Positions 24,401-61,760 of a stretch of 64,000 nucleotides of DNA are shown piece by piece (position 1 is the first letter of the stretch; every line of letters starts with the position of its first letter). The DNA comes from Phoenix dactylifera (Eukaryota > Streptophyta > Magnoliopsida > Arecales > Arecaceae): NCBI RefSeq assembly GCF_009389715.1, contig NC_052407.1, positions 8,528,475 to 8,592,474 of the forward strand, read 5' to 3'. The notes below the pieces were generated by a model, which saw only the letters and a list, made by a program, of their open reading frames with translations, did no database searches and was not told the DNA's origin. The translations under genes were made by a program, and so were the position numbers.

Positions 24401-27400
24401 CAGTTTTTTCCTATCTCCAGAAGATATTAAGAATATTTTGTCTGCCCTACACCCGCGTGGTAAAGTTTCAGCAAATAATTTTAAGCTCAATGGCCATCTT
24501 TCTTGAAGCACTCTCTAGCCCTTTCTGTCCTAATCGCTATTCCCATCAACATCTTGGTTTAACTAAGAAGGTGGATTTTTATAGCGATTTTTGGTTTCAT
24601 CATGTGTAGCTTTTCTGAGTGGTACGAGATTAAATTTGGCCATGATGAGGAACTATATTATGCACATCTTTAGGTTCTATTAAGTAATTTGCTAGTCTTA
24701 TCTGCTTCATAATAAATCTGAAGTATGAGAAGATGAGTACTGATTTTTGGAAGCAACTAACAGGAAGCAATCTTATTGGTTACTCGGTTCTTGAATTTAG
24801 AACTTGGAATACAGGAAATTCAATGGTAAATTATGCTTCAAACTAGCATGGACTACATACTTGTTGGGGAAAATTAATGGGAAGTTATGCTTCGAGTTGT
24901 CTTCAGAGCATCCCATTGTGGACTTTGTGTTGCATTCTTTATGTAGAAGAAGGTTGAGTCCAAACATTAGTGTATATATTATGCTTACAACTTAGAAGGC
25001 AAAGCCCAAATATTAATAGAACTAAGCAAATTTGCAACAAATAAAATCTTTATAATAAACATCTTACTGCAACAATTCTAATGAAGATTTCAACCATATA
25101 TAACCAAACAATGTCGAGTTCTCAACTCTGTTTTTGCAAAAATACTTGAGCATCATACAAACAGCCTAGTATTATCAAAATCATATATTTAGCCTACAAA
25201 TATAGACTCGCAGAATATCAATGCTTTTGGATCAGTGTTTCATGCACTCTTTCGCAAAAAGACTTTATCGTACATAAGATAGGTTTCTTAACTGGCTTAT
25301 TTTACAATGGCTTTTACAGATTTTAGTAATAAGCTGCAGTCCATTCTTTGTACAAGAATAATTCCACTGTTCCTCTAGCCCAACCATATTCAAGTTGTCT
25401 TTCACTGCAATCTGAGTTCCTATACATAATCCTTCTCAGTATCAATTGCATAATCAGGAATGAGGATTTCTTCGAGACTCCTGTTATCATCTTAAAACCT
25501 GCATCTCCCTTCAGCAAGAAAAATGTGTATAATTTGGCTCCCCTTTTGTGCTGGTTGTCATCATTATCACCTCCAAACTTTTCTGTACTAGCTTGATCTT
25601 GGGATCTAGCAAAAGTTTTACAAGATAACCATGGTGTTAGATCCATTAAAACTTGAAACAGAATTTATAGGGGAAAAAACTTAAAATTTTGAGCATCAAA
25701 TAGGGAGAAAGTTATGGATGAACACGATCTGATCCAAATGAAGTATAGTTCTCTTTTTGATATCTCATAAGTATTAACATTTAAAGGTCCAAACTACCCA
25801 TCAAGGTTTTTTTCTTTTCTTTTCCTTTTTCTTTTTCTTGTAGCAGCCAACAGGGTTGGTAGATGTTAGAGAGAGAGGGCTGGGGGGGGGGGGGGGATGA
25901 CGGGGCTCCTAAGCCACACATCAGGGCAGTCGCAGGCGGTGGGGAGAAAGAGAGTGAGGTCAGTCAATCTTCCATGCAGACTGTGAGTGAGGTCTAGAGC
26001 AGCTATGGAGATGGTTGTCCTTGCCACTATGGGAGAAAGAGGACAGCAGCAATGGAGATGGTTGTCCCTGCTGCTCTAGGAGGGTAAAAGGTAAAGTCAA
26101 TAACTGATGGCCAAAAGATTACTTTTAAAAAGTATGTGTTGAAAGTCAAAACCACTTCACTAGTTTTTGACAGTGTTTTGCATGGATCTCAAGATTGATG
26201 AATGGCTATCAACTTGTTAACTCCTCAACTAGGGAGTACATATAAAGTGTGTAGTCTGTGTCATATATAATGTATGTATGTATATATGTAAAATGGAGGG
26301 GCATAGCCCACCACAGTGTACTTTGGTTGTTGACACCTTCCCACTGTCCCAGCTAAGGCCTTCTCATTTGTGGAGTTAGGATGGTTTTGTATATTGTTCT
26401 CAGGGCTTCTTATTTATGAGACCCTTAGAAAATGATGCCAGTCCCCATCCTTATCTGGTTATGCACTGACTGAAAGCTCTGCTTAGATTTATGTTGCTCT
26501 TTTGTTTGAATTCTCTAATTCTTTTTGTCAATAATAACTACCTTACAATCCCTATCCTTTGTAAACTTAGGTTGCAATTCATAGTATATAATATTTTATG
26601 GCCTTCGAATTTATTTGTCTCTCCTCTTACATAGGAGCTTTCTGTTCATTTTATTGTTGCAGATAATGAATCAGTTAGCTGAAGGAATTCTATTTAAGTT
26701 TAAATAGAATTGATCTTATGAATGAGCAACGATCTGTTCTTCAAAATATGTCTGAAATAAAAAAACTAACAAGAAAAGGTATTAAAGATCAAGATGCAAA
26801 CTTGTACAAGTCCTTTGCAAAAGCCAAATACTTGCTTGTGTGAACTGATATTAAGAATTGGAGAGGATTTTACTCATCTCTGGAGTGGAGAAGTTGCATG
26901 ATTATCAAGGTGTAATCCACTGCTGATGAACTATATTTTGATGTGTTCATTTGGGAAGCCTTGTCCTAGGGGTATTAGTGGGTCTATGGAAAAACTTGTT
27001 GACATGTCCACTCAGTTTGGTTTCTCTAGCTAAAATTCTTTGAAGTTTCTTTGGAGTTTTTGGCTCATGATGCATTGAAAGAACTTGTTGTTTTAGAGGT
27101 AATTAGGTACCTATCCTGATTATTGTTTCTTCTCTGTCATCTCTTTGGCTGAGTTTTGCATGGAATAACTGTGCCAAGTGCTCTCTCTCCGCGCCCTATA
27201 TACAAGTGAAAAAGTGGGAACACTACCTTTTGAGTTCAAACCTGGAAATTCTTCCCCAGCCAAGTTTTATTTATAATGTCCTCTTGGAAATAAGTTCATA
27301 ACTTGAATTCACATGTCAGTCTGTTGGATTTGCAGGGATACTTTGGAATATCTCATCAACAGGCCCCGGCACAGGTCACATCTCAGGCTGTAGAGTCTCA

Positions 27401-28941
27401 TTCTTACGTGCATGTCCAAGCAGAATATCCATCTCTCTCAGCAGCATCAACCTCCTTGACAGTGCCCCCTGATTCTTCGATTACTATGTTATCGCTCAAA
27501 CAGATGCCACCTCTATCATTGGATGCAAATAATACAATGAACAAATCTGCAGATGGTTCCCATGCCGATCATAAACCTCAACCTGCTGCTCTCACTGTTG
27601 ACAAACCTGCTGATGATGGCTACAACTGGCGAAAATATGGGCAAAAGCAGGTGAAGGGAGGTGAATATCCTAGAAGCTACTACAAATGTACCCGTCCAAA
27701 CTGCCCGGTAAAGAAAAAAGTCGAACGCTCTCTCGAGGGCCAAGTAACAGAGATAATTTATAAGGGCCAGCACAATCATCTGCGGCCCTCTCAAAATAGG
27801 CGCAGCAGATGCAATGAGTTAAATGGGAGTTTCGATTTTCCCACGAATCCTGAAACAGGCACTGCAAATTTCAGCAGATCAACCGAGACTATGTCCAAAA
27901 GAGATCGAGATTCCAGCCATTGGACACCTGAGCAGTTGTCCGATTCCGGTGAAGACGAAGAAGGTGATGGTGAACCAGGGACAGATGAAGGGAGTGATAC
28001 CGAGCAAGATCCAAAAAGAAGGTCATGTTTTATTTGTTATTGTCTTTTTCAAGAATGGTAGTGGGAGCATCCCTGCACCAACTTCAGTTTTTCCAGAGCC
28101 AAACACTTGGGAACCACCTCTCATGGTTTGAACCCAGAACTTCCTCCCAGATGGAGGAGTGATGCAACCACTGGGACATAGTTTGCTGAAAGTTCGTATA
28201 AGCGTATTACTTATGCTTGCATTGCACCCCGCATTCTGAAAAATTTTGGTTCTGATTGGGCAGGACTATGGACACCAGGGTGATGGAATCAACTTCACAC
28301 AGGACAGTAACAGAACCAAGGATTATTGTGCAAACAACAAGTGAAGTTGATCTTTTGGATGACGGGTATCGGTGGCGCAAATATGGACAGAAGGTGGTCA
28401 AAGGAAATCCTCATCCAAGGTTGTGCATCCTGTCTGACTTGTATGCTGTACCTGCTTGCACTGGGAGTAGGTTACAATTCTATTATGTCGGGATATTCAT
28501 CGGACGAATATAGACTTTATTGGGAGATGATAACAAAATTTCCAAGCACGTTCATGATTTTCGTTTACAATTTATACGTGAATGTTTGATCTTTTTAAAA
28601 ATATATATATATATACAACTGATAGTTCTATTGAAATCTGCAGGAGTTATTACAGGTGCACCAGTGCGGGATGCAGCGTGCGGAAGCACATTGAAAGGGC
28701 TTCAACGGAGCCTAAAGCTGTTATAACAACATACGAGGGGAAGCACAACCATCATGTACCAGCAGCTAGAAACAGCAGCCATGCCACAACGAATGCTGGT
28801 GCTGCTACCAGCAGTATACAACCAAAAGCACAAAATGCCAATTCCAGCAACCAGCCCTCCATTCATGGAATAGAATTTATAAACAACGTCGCACGGCCAG
28901 TTGCAGTTCATGCGCTGAAAAAAGAGCATGATGTTGCTTAG
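21416..28941 (+). CDS. Group I WRKY transcription factor (SUSIBA2-like), 4 exons
   Basis: A nuclear DNA-binding protein of the two-WRKY-domain class that binds W-boxes (TTGACC/T). Exons: 21416-21691, 27336-28021, 28264-28419, 28644-28941; phases close, giving 471 residues from ATG 21416 and TAG at the end. Exon 1 carries [17 protein letters not shown] and an SP-rich segment ([14 protein letters not shown]) as in group I proteins. The N-terminal domain has WRKYGQK starting at residue 190 with C-X4-C and HNH zinc ligands; the C-terminal domain has WRKYGQK at about 358, split by the conserved PR intron, with [11 protein letters not shown] and HNH. An acidic linker ending DPKRR lies between them. 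The conserved residues normally preceding MTLV are encoded one frame out at 21265-21415. Intron 1 is long (5.6 kb). Exon 1 also shows local changes after DSEYR compared with the family. Confidence 0.85.
21692..27335. other. WRKY intron 1 (5.6 kb)
   Basis: No additional WRKY exon was found here. An open frame of 107 codons on the minus strand (25646-25323) resembles nothing I recognise and has no gene-like context. A homopolymer of 15 G lies at 25882-25896 and CCCT repeats occur around 24264-24285. The size suggests old insertions, but I could not delimit any element. Confidence 0.5.
25882..25896. repeat. Poly(G) run of 15
   Basis: An uninterrupted G tract follows GAGAGAGAGGGCT in the WRKY intron. 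Such runs are unstable and prone to length errors in sequencing. Confidence 0.85.
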
Positions 28942-31345: not shown

Positions 31346-34300
31346 ATGGGCTGCGTGGCGTCGAAGAATGCGGCCGCCGTGACGCCGGTCGTTGACTTGG
31401 CCGGCGTTTCGGGAAGTCTGGAAGCGTCGTCGTCGCTGTTCAACCGCCCGAAGCTCGGGAGCTACGAGTTTGGGGACCGCAGCGAGTCCGGGGAGTCGGG
31501 GAAGATCGGCAGCGCCAGCAATTCAATGATCTTTCGGCTGGGGAATCTGCATCGCTGCATCGAGGGAGAGCAGGCCGCTGCCGGCTGGCCTGCCTGGCTC
31601 ACCGCTGTTGCTGGAGAAGCCATTCAGGGATGGGTGCCTCTTAAAGCCGAGTCCTTTGAGAGAATGGACAAGGTAATGAACAGAGTTTATGGCAAGCAGT
31701 CTGTTTAGTTATCCCAATTGCATGCTGAATCACAAGATTCCTCATGCAAGCATTGAAGATTTAGGAAAATTTTGAATGGGCCGCCATATCAATCCATGAA
31801 TGAATTCTATGATTGAATGATGCATCATAGTTTATGACAAAGTTCTCCGCATTCTTAGCTCTTTTGCTTCAGCGTTTCTTGGATGTTTTCAGCTGTCCGA
31901 TGTTCTATTATGGCCTCAACATTGATGTTCGGCAGCCGAGAAAAAAAAATGCTTGTGATCAATGGGAGGATAGCACTTTATGTTTTTGTCATTCTAATTC
32001 GTTGTTATAAATTTGCATGTTTTATCATAAAATAGTTATGTAAACATGGGAATCTCCTAAAACCGCTGAGGAGATCATGATATGTTCTCATATTCGGATG
32101 AGTATTTTGTTGCATGATTCTGCAATGGTTTTCCTGCTGGTGACATCCAGTGGTTCTATTTCGCATTCACGCATTCTGTTTTTGCTTCCTTGCATGACTG
32201 TTACTGACTAGATCTTATTCCCCATGTCAACTGCGTTCGAAGATTGGACAAGGTACCTACAGCAGTGTGTTCAGAGCACGCGAACTCGACACAGGAAAGA
32301 TTGTTGCATTGAAGAGGGTCCGGTTCGACGTTTACGAGCCTGAGAGTGTTAGGTTTATGGCACGCGAGATACAGATCCTCCGCAGGCTCGACCATCCCAA
32401 TATTGCCAAATTGGAGGGACTGATTACATCTCGACTGTCATCTAGTATCTATCTTGTTTTTGACTATATGGAGCATGATCTTGCCGGGTTGTTGTCTGCT
32501 CCTGACATCAATTTCAGTGAGCCACAGGTTTGTCCACATTCTCGACGAGTTCTATAAAGTGAAGAATTGGAATAAGAAATTCTGAGCAGTTGAATACTTT
32601 CCTGTGCATATGCATTGTAGATCAAATGCTACATGCGACAATTACTATCTGGACTCGAACATTGCCACTCACGCGGCATCATGCATCGTGACATCAAGTG
32701 TGCAAACCTTCTGATTAATAATGAGGGGATCCTGAAAATTGCCGACTTTGGTCTGGCAAACTTCTTCAGTGCCGGGCAAATACAACCACTGACTAGCCGC
32801 GTCGTCACGCTATGGTATCGCCCGCCTGAACTTCTTCTGGGTTCAACAGACTATGAAGCATCTGTGGATCTGTGGAGTGTTGGTTGTGTTTTTGCAGAAG
32901 TGTTTCTTAGGAAGCCTATCTTCCAAGGAAGAACTGAGGTAATCATCCTATGTATACCTTGTGCATATTTCCTGTATTTGTTTTTTTTAAATGCAAAAGA
33001 TTATCTTGCTACTTCTAGGAACAAGACAAGTGCACAGATCAGCCATGATGATGACAGAACCATGACATTTCTGCCCCTTTTCTTTCTTTTTTCCTTTAAC
33101 TTATAACGTAGATTCAATTCACTAAAACATAAAAAGGTAAAAAAAAAGTAAATCACTAGAAGCGAGAAGAAACCAGAAAACAATATATTGTGGGAAAAAG
33201 ATGATACAAATCCTTTCCTTTCTCTGTAGTAAATGATAGGCAACTCAACATGCAAATCTCGAATTCTTTCCAGCATTTTCACTCTAAAAATTTCATGCTG
33301 TAGTTTCTTTAAGGGTCTCGACTGTGGAATGCATTAGGATTTGGCTACAGATCAATTTAATGGGATACAATTCAAGAAAACAAACCAGCACTGAATTGCA
33401 GCTATAGCCATGGCTGATCGGTAGAATACCTGAATGATATCAATTAAAATGGGTGCATATCTGACTTTAACAATATTCACATGAAATCGAACATATGAGG
33501 AGAATTGTTCAAAAATTTTACAACTCAGGAATGTATATATATGCTTGTACTATTAACCACAGGAAATAGTTTCAGAATTGTACTGTGGACACTGCACAGC
33601 ATATTTGCATCTCCGATTCTTAAAAATGAAGCACCAGCCATCTAGCAACGCAGTGGAATACATACAATTGACAGTCATCAAAACTATTTTTTACGTATAT
33701 TGTGGTAACATTTCTTTAATCTAACAATCTATAGATTAAAAATATATTCTCTCATACTCAAGTTTGCACTATGGTAAGTTATGAAGTCTCATTATTTTTC
33801 TTTTACTTTCAGGTTGAACAAATACATAAGATATTTAAGCTATGTGGTTCTCCACCAGAAGAATTTTGGAAGAAGTCCAAGTTGCCCCATGCAACACTTT
33901 TTAAACCGCAGCAACCTTATGGTAGTTGCCTCCGAGAGACACTTAAACGTTTACCAGAAAATGCCTTTAACTTATTAGAAACTTTCCTCTCTGTTGAACC
34001 ATATAGGCGCGGTACAGCCTCGACCGCTCTTGCATCTGAGGTAGCTTTATATAAAGGAATTCATCTCTCATTATGTTTACATATTTCATTTATAATGCTT
34101 CTTCTTTTCTTGTGTTGTTTTAGACAAAGTGGCATACGGTTGTCTAATCTAATTGCAGTGATGCCTGCTTGCTTTTTTCAATTTTTTATAAAATATCTCT
34201 GAGCAGTAGCTTTTGGGTTGAAAAAGAATGAAACTTAATGCGATTATTTTACCAAAAAGATATGGAACTGTAAATTACAGAAGAGGATACAAAGAATCAC

Positions 34301-36893
34301 AGAAGAACCAAAAAATGAACGATCCAAAAATAGCACATATTTTTACCTTCCTCTCCCAACAGGAATCCGGATTGATGGAAGAAGGAACCTATATCCAAAA
34401 TTTCGATGGTTGTGCTCTGTTATATAACTTTGATTTTTGTACATTTCCCCAAACAACTCAAGCATCACAGAAGGTACTCCAAAATTCCAAACAACTCAAG
34501 CATGACAATAGATGTTACCATCAGTTCTAGACACTGATTTTGGCTGCTCCAAATTATTTCTGGTCGAGAAGACTATCACTAGTCATGGTCTCTACCAACC
34601 TGGTTAGCAAACAGAATCCTACTTTGATGGTTTGTTATGTCTATTGCTAGCTGACCTCTATGACACTGTGAGATGCTTTACCCTGTGCTCTCTCTCCCTC
34701 TCTCATATTTAGAATATGGTCTTTAATCTTTGAAACAAAGGCATCCAGGAGTACTAGACTTTCAAGACCTTTATCAGTTCTAGGAGAACCTGTTATTGCT
34801 CCAAATGTAGTCAGTAGCCCAAGTTCTGGAGTATTATAAGTTCAGCATATGACCATCTAGGATAATTGGAGCATTTTGGCCCTAGAAGACTTGCTTAAGC
34901 TATAATGTTCTGTCTTTTACTGCTTTTATCTATCACAAGAAATCATGTCAATATGACAGTAATGTTTGCGACGGCTTGTCTGAGATTTTTTTTTTCTTCT
35001 TAACCTGGTTTTCTATCATAACTACTTCCGATATGAAATATTTGGGGATCATGTTGGTATGTCAGGTTGCAATTCTATTTGATGTTCTTTTTTTCCTCAT
35101 TCATGTTCAGTATTTCAAGTCAAAGCCATATGCATGTGCTCCGTCAAGCTCGCCAAAATACCCACCTAACAAGGAGATTGATGCAAAAGCCCGTGAGGAC
35201 GTACTCAGGTAAGCTTTCACAATCTTCATTACTTCACACTTCCAACTTCCAAGATAAGAAAAAAATCCTTTCAGAGGAAGAAAAAAAAGAAGAGGAAGCT
35301 AATTTCTAGAAGAATGATCATCAACTGTTCTCGTATTTGCTGTGTTAGTTGGTCAGGTTCACGCATTGCAAGTAAATTCAGTTTGTGGATGTTGAACCTT
35401 AGAAAGTTGGATACCAATGGAAGTTTAACATCATATGCATAATGCATCTACGATCCTATCCAAATATAAATTTGGTTTACAATATTTTGCTCCCATAATT
35501 TCCAAACCAGAACTTTCTCTTGCTCTTTCTATATCAAACAATTAAGCGAATGTAACAACCCAGGACCTCACCCAAAATGGCTAGCCGGAAGGTATTATTT
35601 GGGTTCCTTGATCCTGTATAAGTACCCAAGATTTACCCAGCAAATAACCGATATGGGACTAAACACACGTCCGCACAGGTCCTCGCATATAAAAAGGAGT
35701 ATGGATTGGATGGTTGGTGCGTTGGTTTGATGGGGATGAGGTAACAGGTTCGATTCCCCATTCCCTCCTTTTTTATGTGAGGAACCGTGCGGGCGTGTAT
35801 TTAGTCCCACATCGGTTATTCGCTAGGTAGATCTTGGGTACTTATATAGGATCAAGGAACCCAAACAATACCTTCCGGCTAGCCATTTTGGGTGAGATCC
35901 TGTGTTGTTACAAATGGTATCACAGCGGACCCGGCCCATAACCTGTGGACTAGGGGACACTGCAGTACGGATTTATTGGGGCTGACGACGGACTGATCAT
36001 GGTGCTTGTGATTAGATTTGAATGGATTTGAACCCTTAGCCTGACGAGGACGTCAGGGCTTGAACGGGGGAAGTATGTGAGGACCCGTGCGGGCGTGTGT
36101 TTAGTCCCATATCGGTTATTTGCTGGGTAGATCTTGGGTACTTATACAGGATCAAGGAACCCAAATAATACCTTCCGGCTAGCCATTTTGGATGAGGTCC
36201 TGGGTTGTTACAAATGGTATCAGAGTGGACCTGGCCCATAACTTATGTGGACTAGGGGACACTGCAGCACGGATCCATTGGGATTGACCACGGACCGATC
36301 GTGGTGTTTGTGATTAGATTTGAATGGATTTAAACCCTTAGCCTGACGAGGACGTCAGGACTTGAACAGGGGGAGTATGTGAGGATCCGTGCGGGCGTGT
36401 GTTTAGTCCCACATCGGTTTTCGCTAGGTAGATCTTGGGTACTTATGCAGGACTAAGGAACCCAAACAATACCTTCCGGCTAGCCATTTTGGGTGAGATC
36501 CTGTGTTGTTACAGCGAACCCTAATACGAACTTGACCAAACATAAGTATTAAATCAGCTAAATTATCTGTAAATATTACAAAGCCAAACATCAGTAGTTA
36601 TTAACGTATCCAGTGACACTTAAGCCTTCTAACGCGGCCATTGTCAAAGCCAAAGCCATCTTTGTTTTGCAAATCCTTGTAAGTCAGTAAAGGAAATGTA
36701 GTTACTCATATCTGATACCATCATCAGACAATTCACTTTGTAGAGTTTTAACTGATCTTCTTTTTTTTTTTTTTAAGGAGAAGGGTCCATTGTAGGCCGT
36801 GTGGTATAGAAGCCACAAGAAAACCTTTAAGAACATATAGAACTTCACAAGAATCAAATGGGCTAAGCAGAGCAGCATCTCTCCAAAAGGTAG

Positions 36894-54208: not shown

Positions 54209-54869
54209 CCGGTTCTGGTTATATGCTATTTCTTCGTGAAAGAGTAAGCTCCTCATGATATAGCTTTTGAGCGAACTACGAAGTTGATTAGTAGTGATAC
54301 CACCCGCAGTTGATTAGTGAAGCATGCAAACTTCTCCCTTGGTCCCTAACTCCAGCGGTCCCATACAATAAACTCCTTAAGTCAGATTAGTACGTATATG
54401 ACTATAATGCCCCTAGCTACACGAGCTGCCGCCTGCCGTCCATGACATGGGGGTATTATGGTAAAAGAGCTCGACAAGGCTTGTGGCGCTTTTGACCACG
54501 CGAGTCTCACGGGAAAGAAAGTGGTGGTCCCCGCGGAGACCTTTGGGCACTTTGAGGCCGTCACATCGTACGAACGCCGCGGCCTTTTATTCTAAGTATA
54601 TATTATAATATTTTTTTTTGTTGTTCGCGTCCTCAGGTTAATGATCCGTAATACCTGAAATAGACCGGGGTGTTTGGCGCGGTACGTGTCAAGCAGGGCA
54701 AAAATAGGGGAGTAAATGTTCTTAGCATATTCCACATGGATGGATTGGCATTTTGGCAGTGCATAGCCTGAGACACAGCACTTGTTTTGTTATGATTTTT
54801 TTTTTAATGGATATATAATATATTTTCCGAATTACACTTATAGATATCGATGCGAGGCTAAACATATAT
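54209..54869. other. Intergenic, no gene recognised
   Basis: A locally GC-rich patch at about 54400-54590 could be mistaken for a promoter or exon, but no open frame with family similarity or splice context goes with it. Confidence 0.4.
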
Positions 54870-55308
54870 TGTAACAACCCAGGACCTCATCCAAAATGGC
54901 TAGCCGGAAGTTATTATTTAGGTTCCTTAATCCTGTATAAATATCCAATATCTACCAAGCGTATAACCGATGTGGGACTAAATACATGCCCGCATGGATT
55001 CTCACATACTCCCCCCGTTCAAGCCCTGACGTCCTCGTCAGGCTAAGGGTTCAAATACATTCAAATCTAATTACAAACACCACGATCGGCTCATGATTAG
55101 CCCTAATGGATCTGTGCTGCAGTGTTCCCTAGTCCACATAGATTATGGGCCGGGTCTGCTCTGATACCATTTGTAACAACCCAGGACTTTACCCAAAATG
55201 GCTAGCCGGAAGTTATTATTTGGGTTCCTTGATCCTGTATAAATACCCAAGATCTACCCAGCGAATAACCGATGTGGGACTAAATACACGTCCGCACGGA
55301 TCCTCACA
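54870..55308 (-). mobile_element. Complete TRIM-type LTR element with TATAT target duplication
   Basis: On the minus strand the structure is LTR (55308-55172), primer-binding site ATGGTATCAGAGCAG, internal region of about 165 bp, purine tract AACGGGGGGAGTA, and LTR (55006-54870). The LTRs start TGTGAG and end TTGTTACA. TATAT flanks both sides (54865-54869 and 55309-55313). It has no coding capacity. It belongs to the same family as the compound insertion at 35551-36513. It may be mobilised only in trans by an autonomous element. Confidence 0.9.
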
Positions 55309-55313
55309 TATAT

Positions 55314-55568
55314 TTGTGCGGATTTTTACATATTTTTTTATATAAGTCCTAACGTTCGTGTCAGGTTAAAGTTCTAATTCATTCAAATCTAATTAAGAGC
55401 ATTATGATCGGCTCGTGGTTAACTCCCATAAATTCGTATTGCAGTATTCCTTAGTTCATATAGATTTTGGGCATTGTTTGAGTTTCTTGATTCTGTAAAA
55501 GTACTCCAGATCTATCCATCGAATAATCGATATAGAACTAAACACACACCCGTACGGATCCTCACACA
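55314..55568 (-). mobile_element. Degenerate TRIM copy adjoining the complete one
   Basis: Beginning GTGCGGATTTTTACATA, this segment follows the TRIM internal region and then an LTR body (AATCGATATAGAACTAAACACAC ... GTACGGATCCTCACA) with many substitutions. The LTR's U5 part and the primer-binding site are deleted. It appears to be an older copy of the same family in the same orientation. Confidence 0.65.
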
Positions 55569-58500
55569 TATACTGTGATAAACATTTCTTAATATTCCTT
55601 AATACTTTATTAACAGATAATAAGGTAATCAATTATTGGTTCCTTGTGGACCATAAAGAAATGTTGGAAACAAATGGTATCTTTCAAATTTTGAATCAGG
55701 CACCATTTATGCATTGCTAGTTTGGGTGATATTTTTTGGTTGAGATAATCAACCTTTCATTGGGTTATACTCTTTGTTATCTCTCCACAACGTATCTACT
55801 TTAGAAAAAGTCATACTAAATACTCAATTTCGATAACTTTATATGCATTAACATGCTTTGAAGGGTTGAATCGATTATCAAAACATTGATTTTGTATAGC
55901 ATTGATACACCATCTTATAAGTTCAACCTTTAGCAAACAGCTTAATAAAATAATTGAAAGAATTTTTTTTTTTATGAAGCAAGAAAAAGAATAGCTTTTG
56001 TGTACTTATTTTTATATAGTATACGAAAGAAATAACACAGAAGAGATCATTCTCTGCCACTTAAGTATTATTTGCGGATGCCCCCAATCATAAATTGTTA
56101 AGACAATCTTTAAAAATTATTCACAGGCTCACCAAATAATACTAGAAGATATTTCAAAAGAAAATGTAACTCTTTAAGTTAAAAAGTACAAAAAAAATTT
56201 GAAGTTGATAGAATGATTCTTAAATGTTATATGAGTCATTAAGCCTAGAAAGAAAAGTTTCCATAAAGGAGAGGAAAGAGGGGTTTAAATGTGGAACAGA
56301 CGAGTTTTTATTTTATTTTATTTCATTTATTGGTAGGGGATGGAAAACAATTAGCTAAAAGAAAATTTTTCCATCACCCAGGTCTGTGCCATGGTCCTTT
56401 TCACTTTGGAAAAGGATGCAAACCATCTGAGATAATGTTGATTAAAAAGCTATTGTTCTTTGACTTTGCATTACATATCATTTTGTTGTTATTGAGTTGT
56501 TATGATTCTCCATTGAGATTTGAAGAATAGAGAACGACCACCAGTTAAACATTACGGCAGCTCCTCTTGTAACCTGAGCAAAGGGAGGGGAGGGGAAGAG
56601 AGAACAAAATAGGCATCTAAAGAGTTGAGAAGCACATCAAGAACTTATTCAACTACTGCAAGCAAATGTGCAAGAGAATTGCCACTTTGTTTGATTAGCT
56701 AATTCTAACTTCACTAGTTGATTTTAAGTCACATAGCAAGAAGCCTGGAACTAATAGGTACATGAGGAAGTCCACTTAGCCGAATTTGGATGCTACTTTG
56801 TGGTATCTCCATAATTTTGTATAAAACTGTTTCTTCTTCCATTAATATTCAAACAAAACTGACCTTAGAAGAAACTGAAAAATATTTGGCGAATGAAGAA
56901 AAAAGGCCAAGGGGTTTACCATCTATCTAACTCTCTATCCCGACTTCTTCTGCAACAACTCTTTCATCTTTGATGATAGCACCTAAAAATTTTGACCTCT
57001 CTCTGAAGATCTCTTTATCTTGATAGTCGGATATTATTATCACGCATAGAGACTTGCTTGAACTTTCTTCCAAAGTTTATCCAGCCTGAATAATTAGTAA
57101 CTTGCTTGCAACTAGGTTTTGAACTTATTTTTAAGAGGAAGAAAAAAAAAACAAGGTCAAACTATGACCATATCAGCTCAAGTTGTTGAAGCCCTGTGGG
57201 GCACTCAAACATTATAATGTCAAAAAAAGGCTGGGCGAGAGGTCAGCCATGGGGTTTCCGACAGCACACTAAAAGGATTACCAGCGTCTAAGCAAATTGG
57301 CTGGCCTCACTGGAATTATGATGATGCACTTGGGGAACAGCCCTTCAGTTTTCAAGAATAAGATCAGAAATATTTATTGCCTATTCGAACTATTAGTTAA
57401 TGAGCTGAATTAAACAATATCTATTAAATTTTCACTTGCTTGCGGGTGGGATGACCTTTCAAGTGATTCTACCAAAAAAAATAAGGATTTTTTTTTTTTA
57501 AGCTCTTAAAAAAAGAGAGGATCCATTTCCAAACCACTTGAAGATACGTAAGGCTTCATGTCAGATATCCTGTCTGGATTGAAGAGTACCAAGCTGTCCT
57601 CCCTAATAAATGGGCCCTATTAAACTGCATTTAGAATGCACTGAACATGAACAATAATACTTCAGTGTACATTCCCTGAGGATCCGTCCAGCATTTTGAA
57701 TTGTTTAAACTTTGCATCCGTCCATTCTGCTGCATGACAGTAATTTTCATAAAATAATCCAATTCTCATCGCTGTGCTTGAAGACTTTTGCAGGTCAATA
57801 AATAAAACTATGCTTCTTAATTTTCATGACTCTTGTGACAGCTGAGGACCTATTACAAAATTTAATGGGATTGAATGGGTTTGAATTTTCTGCAAAAATC
57901 GTACTAATTGGCTTGTTCAGATTTTTTTTTTATAGCCCATCTTAATTTTTACTTAAATTCTATTTATGAGTCTGTTCGAGTGCAGAATAAAAAATATTTA
58001 TTTTTTTTTACAAAATTTGAGTTGGATTTTTCAAACAGGCTCTAAGTCTGCTAAGGATTCTAAGTCCTAAAATTCTTGCAAACGAGCTCTGATTATTCAA
58101 TTAGGATTTTTTTTTACTTTGGCATTTTAAGAAAATCTAGAGAAGTTTATCATGCAATATAATGGATTGGTTAAAATTGAATGAGTCTGCCCTTCAAACA
58201 ATGAGGTCAATCTATGAGATCTACTATAATCGGACATGTGATTCACATGAGATCCACTGGTTAACTCTGATTTTGGTTTCTTTTTAATTATTATTCACGT
58301 AATTTAATAAATTATATGACAGCTGCATTTCTTTTTTCTCCCTCATAGAAATGAATCAAGAGGACTATTTTTTTAAAAAAAATAAAGAATTAGAGTTAGT
58401 ATGGTAGCGTGGAGAGGGAGAATCACGTCTTGGAGCCTCATGAAAACTCCGGAGTCCGATTTTGTTATTAGAATAGATGAACCCAATTCTTCCAAAAGAC

Positions 58501-61551: not shown

Positions 61552-61760
61552 TCCAAGGATCCGTGCATACGTGTATTTAGTTCTATATTAGTTATTCGCT
61601 GAGTAGATCTTGAGTACTTATATAAAATTAATGAATCTAAATAATACTTTTCAATTAGCCATTTTGGGTGAGGTCTGAGATTGTTACAAATTGTATGACA
61701 TAGTTTATGACTTATGTAGACTAGGGACACTATAACACTATTAAATTTGAACTCTTAATG
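61552..61760 (+). mobile_element. Decayed TRIM fragment (LTR plus part of internal region)
   Basis: The segment from GGATCCGTGCATACGTG through TTCGCTGAGTAGATCTTGAG and GCCATTTTGGGTGAGG to TTGTTACA (ending 61688) is an LTR of the TRIM family described above. It is followed by a degraded primer-binding site (AATTGTATGACATAG) and a shortened internal region (GACTAGGGACACTATAAC). No second LTR is seen. Confidence 0.7.

Follow-up and report, generated by a model that had tools for sequence, protein, structure and literature searches.

A TRIM array lodged in an intron of a protein-kinase gene presents a U5 end on both of its outer sides, and there is good support for the view that a rearranged molecule, with U5 at both termini, was inserted in one piece. 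The array occupies a single target site, encloses filler from a foreign element, retains TA at both of its inner U3 ends, combines two LTR sequence types, and has counterparts elsewhere in the genome. It is probably an integrated concatemer of TRIM reverse-transcription products joined at their U3 ends. The window, i.e., the whole 64-kb stretch of DNA that was analyzed, has a GC content of 0.377 and belongs to a 773-Mb assembly of 2391 contigs.

The block extends from position 35546 to 36518 and consists of an inverted LTR, a spacer, and a direct LTR-internal-LTR-internal-LTR series bounded by GCGAA pentamers (Table 1). This is the layout that the original prediction had described: four LTRs of about 137 bp (one inverted, three direct), two internal regions with primer-binding-site (PBS)-like starts, a single duplication around the whole, and U5 at either extremity. 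The outermost letters read TGTAAC... and ...GTTACA, which is the U5 end twice, whereas an ordinary TRIM is bounded by U3 on one side and U5 on the other. LTRs of 137 bp and internal regions of about 163 bp place the element in the TRIM size class. Both internal regions start with AA and the PBS-like TGGTATCA.., presumably complementary to initiator tRNA-Met, and both end in a purine run and TA directly before the next LTR. Having at least three LTRs, at least two internal regions, and one duplication, the block qualifies as a TA-TRIM; internal duplications were not seen inside it. The same TRIM recurs in the window as a second array (54869-55570, minus strand; three LTRs, all oriented alike and the first of them degraded) and as a diverged fragment of the family comprising a single LTR with the beginning of an internal region (61556-61731).

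Table 1. Features of the TRIM block and its host intron (positions in the window)
Feature	Position	Strand	Basis or remark
Host intron of protein-kinase gene, GT..AG	35209-36777	+	Exon edges conserved in paralog; boundaries by eye
Target-site duplication, left copy GCGAA	35546-35550	.	Empty paralogous site has one copy, GTGAA
Inverted LTR (L1), 137 bp, U5 end outermost, LTR3 sequence type	35551-35687	-	96% to LTR3
Spacer, 88 bp, filler captured from LTR of unrelated LTR retrotransposon	35688-35775	+	TA kept on U3 end on either side
LTR2, 137 bp, outer LTR of direct array	35776-35912	+	LTR comparison
Internal region 1	35913-36075	+	AA, PBS-like TGGTATCACAGC, purine run GGGGGAAG, TA
LTR3, 137 bp, middle LTR common to both units	36076-36212	+	LTR comparison
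Internal region 2	36213-36377	+	AA, PBS-like TGGTATCAGAGT, purine run GGGGGAG, TA
LTR4, 136 bp, U5 end outermost	36378-36513	+	LTR comparison
Target-site duplication, right copy GCGAA	36514-36518	.	Read from sequence

The target site also exists in an empty state. When the flanks, joined with one GCGAA, were run against the same genome, a paralogous intron on contig C19 aligned straight across the joined site (351/448 identical), with the site reading AATTAAGTGAACCC against AATTAAGCGAACCC. The paralog carries one pentamer, GTGAA, and lacks an insert, and the 1901 bp fetched from it yielded no TRIM sequence. Therefore, the whole block entered one target site, and a short duplicated target with an empty counterpart is what integrase-mediated insertion leaves. 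The predicted location in a kinase intron is supported by Pfam Pkinase matches in two ORFs upstream of the block (32198-32554 and 32621-33103) and by GT..AG edges conserved in the paralog, with the gene model read by eye. Farther upstream, at 27294-28058, the window holds an ORF with a WRKY DNA-binding domain.

The spacer had been described as a hairpin. Its ends are complementary, but it folds no better than chance (z -1.09; 28/200 shuffles as good), and the idea of an unusually stable hairpin was dropped. Searched against the genome, the spacer returned 155 candidates and 40 scored matches, the window itself among them. The other 39 share 88-94% identity, many as same-strand pairs about 5-6 kb apart. 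Pairwise comparison and reading of the loci place the donor copies roughly 75 bases into the LTRs of a larger retrotransposon, which start with TGTTAG and are preceded by a purine run. Resemblance to the TRIM is absent from the donor flanks (29 of the 39 aligned). Judged by these matches, the spacer is filler captured from another retrotransposon's LTR. On either side of it, the TRIM sequence begins with TA followed by TG, the TA lying outside the LTR. Given how LTR elements replicate in general, such a TA would be expected on a U3 cDNA end that had not been processed. Both U3 ends of the window block accordingly keep the unprocessed terminal nucleotides that characterize an end-joined, 2-LTR-type junction. 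This signature, the dinucleotides that integrase normally removes, can tell end joining of unintegrated DNA from chromosomal recombination.

Other searches did not explain the spacer: neither Rfam at gathering thresholds nor ARAGORN returned a match in the window. MIR6462 matched weakly across the inverted junction (24.5 bits against a gathering score of 96; E 0.12), which we interpret as an inverted-repeat effect. The spacer has a T-run at its end and A-run/T-run inverted ends (35690-35774), and it includes GGTTCGATTCC, which we take to be a box-B-like motif; the donor LTR stretch may be tRNA derived, although ARAGORN found no tRNA. The donor family itself holds a palindrome of two facing LTR starts (L058 at about 1380-2120, C1581 near 40505; also L053, C225), with arms about 96% alike over the 3007 columns measured between the overlapping loci L045 and L058. 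The palindrome contigs C1581 and C225 appear to represent a single locus, with 99% identity over 2561 bases.

A first look at the genome gave 6340 TRIM candidates. The search for further copies with inverted outer LTRs, suggested along with the original prediction, identified 11 distinct inverted arrays of this family, the window (L001) included, eight of which are U5/U5 (Table 2); their detection relied on resemblance to known arrays and on strict patterns, so that this number implies no genome-wide frequency. Thirty loci cut from the first search contain five with inverted units: L001 and, among the 29 others, which were chosen for likeness to a three-LTR array, L017, L018, L022, and L026. 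A U3-U3 pattern gave 18 matches at 13 places versus 0 for the reversed pattern. True head-to-head LTRs occur at 6 of the 13 places, corresponding to five loci, since C5 and C517 are one locus (L061, L063, L066, L067, and L077). L081, on C10, came from an additional search, and L083 was fetched for a direct LTR-LTR junction. Matches at C6, C17, C221, C236, and C364 were discounted, as their letters do not resemble this LTR; C221 (L071), the sole annotated one of these five, yielded no LTR. C52 (L070) and C277 (L073) were rejected as inverted, with LTRs in one orientation only. Tail-to-tail U5-U5 junctions within 30 bp were not recovered by a strict pattern, which gave 2 matches versus 16 in the reversed control; the two correspond to an ordinary element (L079) and a degraded one (L080).

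Table 2. Inverted arrays of the TRIM family
Array	5-bp duplication	Outer ends	Center	TA at inner U3 ends
L001 (window)	GCGAA	U5/U5	Spacer (Table 1)	2/2
L017	GTTTT	U5/U5	Internal position 43, CAAT, TA-U3	1/1
L018	ATGCA	U5/U5	Internal position 42, TTTT, then first PBS base	
L026	CTAAC	U3/U3		
L061	CTAGT	U5/U5	TA-ATT-TA	2/2
L063 (again as L075)	CATAC	U5/U5	CATTGG, without TA	0/2
L066 (same array as L022)	GATGG (left end in L066, right in L022)	U3/U5, two internal inversions	CACATATGTG, two U3 ends overlapping at TA	1/1
L067	Too degraded, right end unassignable; counted as miss	None assigned (degraded)		1/2
L077	None clean	U5/U5	CACATATGTG, two U3 ends overlapping at TA	1/1
L081	AAGAG	U5/U5	U3 to LTR position about 123	0/1
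L083	AGTTT/AGCTT (one mismatch)	U5/U5	LTR fragment from position 83 meets last bases of another LTR	

Exact 5-bp duplications flank 8 of the 11 inverted arrays. The seven beyond the window, five of them U5/U5, add to the single-pentamer empty site in sustaining the proposal that a molecule with two U5 ends inserted as one unit. That the GCGAA match might be fortuitous is not borne out: flanking pentamers are identical in 18 and differ in 10 of the 28 arrays measurable among the 30 loci (L006 and L022 were dropped because an end inside the locus is not an LTR end), versus 3/756 for mispaired left and right flanks, with about 1/1024 expected by chance for a 5-bp match. Empty paralogous sites are available for three inverted arrays in total. 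For L061, two lie nearby (L089, 493/522 bases; L090, 408/431 aligned), with a 5-base space at the site that reads TCACT and TCACC in the empty copies versus CTAGT; a third paralog, L092, is rearranged there. The L061 pentamer differs from both at no fewer than 3 of 5 positions, though the flanks are about 94% identical. Such differing letters weigh against the concatemer reading, as do the lacking, imperfect, or unassignable duplications of L077, L083, and L067. The empty counterpart of the U3/U3 array L026 is on C13 (348/471 aligned; CCAAT versus CTAAC). The same search found no empty site for L018 and L081, and L017, whose flank is repetitive, was left out of it.

The U5/U5 arrays have intact outer ends and variable inner ends. 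Those of L017, L018, and L081 are, from their sequence, cDNA-like truncations, and the centers shared by L066 and L077 would fit annealing of two self-complementary TA ends. One arm each in L017 and L018 stops at internal position 42-43, beside a purine run, a possible recurrent stop site. By hand count, TA lies immediately 5' of the U3 TG at 8 of 12 inner U3 ends, the single TA common to both sides of L066 and L077 being counted once; the chance of this is about 2.5e-6 if p(TA)=0.096 and the ends are taken as independent. Counting against the pattern, TA is absent at three inner U3 ends (both in L063, one in L081) and is one-sided in L067. Direct LTR-LTR junctions gave 16 pattern matches versus 2 in a reversed-pattern control, and 7 of the 16 are annotated (L007, L015, and L081 to L085), the other 9 being pattern matches only. 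TA precedes TG in 14 of the 16, AA follows the U5 CA in 12, and exactly AA+TA is present in 4, among which L084 and L085 are one locus twice and the left LTR of L083 is reduced to its last ~8 bases. Internal-like letters are retained in 5 of the 16, and some of these junctions might instead stem from loss of internal sequence between AA and TA. Arrays with a direct LTR-LTR junction also carry single duplications (L007 ATATT, L015 AATAG, and L082 AAATC).

In LTR elements, the tRNA primer starts reverse transcription at the U5 end, and synthesis reaches the upstream U3 end last. To produce the window block, an LTR2-int-LTR3-int-LTR4 cDNA and one LTR-long product, possibly a plus-strand strong-stop-like species now seen as the inverted single LTR, would have been end-joined at their upstream (U3) termini, trapping about 83 bp from the LTR of another retrotransposon between them as filler. 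The joining presumably preceded integration and relied on host end-joining enzymes. Joining at the upstream ends leaves two U5 ends that integrase can use. These may have been inserted concertedly, like a normal U3/U5 pair, by the integrase of an autonomous partner, generating the 5-bp duplication. Since synthesis starts with the U5 end and completes the upstream end last, often leaving it truncated, as at the centers of several other arrays, U5/U5 products should outnumber U3/U3 ones. The recurring inverted insertions point to loose copies joined end to end before or during insertion.

The order of these steps could also be reversed. In a two-donor concerted integration, the U5 ends of two cDNAs would enter one site, and the dangling upstream ends would then be joined as a chromosomal break with filler. 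The final structure would be identical, truncated inner ends fit end trimming, and filler capture fits the repair of plant chromosomal breaks. Nevertheless, L081 and L066 each combine at least three joined units of mixed orientation within one duplication, which needs joining beyond a single dangling pair. These multi-unit arrays therefore favor joining before integration, and we regard the two-donor route as unlikely.

An inverted cDNA could likewise be generated by template switching in the course of reverse transcription or by snap-back self-priming, as offered in the original prediction. In L026, the inverted arms meet near a small palindrome and the facing arms are 104/111 identical; L066 and L077 contain short repeated motifs in their inverted arms where an internal jump could have occurred. 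However, the inverted arm of L026 is nearer the middle LTR (107/111) than the facing one. In the window block, pairwise differences among the inverted LTR (L1) and LTR2 to LTR4 (L2 to L4) amount to 5 for L1-L3, 7 for L2-L4, 10 for L2-L3, 12 for L3-L4, 13 for L1-L2, and 15 for L1-L4, and six positions separate L1 and L3 from L2 and L4. The likeness of L2 to L4 is the one predicted for the outer LTRs when a three-LTR element is reverse transcribed. The inverted L1 is thus not a copy of the facing L2, which argues against snap-back self-priming, as do a filler from a different element and two breakpoints that both fall at a cDNA end with TA. As read from these letters, the junctions favor joining of unintegrated cDNA ends over self-priming, which we consider quite improbable.

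A stepwise origin, by independent nested insertions or by later genomic inversion or recombination, is conceivable where TRIMs are so abundant and neighboring copies are common, but it is very improbable in view of the empty paralogous site with one pentamer and no TRIM, the lack of internal duplications, the same design at other sites, and private changes in L1 to L4 (4, 3, 1, and 5 by hand count, one of the last five being a gap) that are compatible with one age for all four LTRs. An assembly artifact, to which the 2391 contigs and loci present twice (L063/L075 and L084/L085) might lend itself, can hardly account for fillers, breakpoints, and duplications that differ between the loci examined, nor for arms that differ from each other.

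Beyond the concatemer reading of the window block, we tentatively propose, somewhat short of even confidence, that TRIM cDNAs are routinely ligated before integration in any orientation, fragments of other retrotransposons included, that integrase takes any two ends, and that the order of reverse transcription biases the survivors to U5/U5. If so, many TRIM arrays, direct and inverted, would be integrated concatemers, and end joining would contribute to retrotransposon propagation. Two like ends with a normal duplication suggest that the integrase complex can work in vivo without a U3/U5 pair. When they lie in genes, inverted arrays could also give rise to hairpin RNA, which may matter for silencing.

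A literature search, judged by titles and the start of abstracts, brought up no recognizable description of U5/U5 LTR-retrotransposon insertions. The product is nonetheless less exceptional than it first seemed: further examples occur in this genome, and a TRIM array of two inverted TRIMs with one duplication is in print for maize (Gao et al. 2016, Fig. 2 legend, PMC4717578). TA-TRIMs resemble the window block as L3I2-type short-LTR arrays with one target duplication; in the portion of that article available to us, they differ in comprising one inverted case, presented with no account of the junction, like outer ends, filler, or mechanism. Cassandra TRIMs, named in the same article, also form multi-LTR arrays. 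The window block differs from them in that Rfam gave no 5S rRNA match at E<=10 over 35400-36700.

Tandem LTR-retrotransposons of rice (PMC11899658, 2025) are likewise thought to have inserted as a unit with a 4-5-nt duplication; their units share an LTR and run in direct orientation, unlike the window block, and the accessible text leaves the mechanism of tandem-array formation open and contains neither "head-to-head" nor "end joining." End-joined 2-LTR circles are considered possible in work on yeast Ty circles, which also lists inverted 2-LTR circles among the products of autointegration (PMC4751563). The abstract of that study reports no signs of end-joined or autointegrated junctions in the Ty circles, which counts against an end-joining model. 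The window block is like these circular and autointegration products in that cDNA ends are joined, and it differs from them in that the joined molecules would have integrated, with U3 ends that retain the nucleotides integrase would remove.
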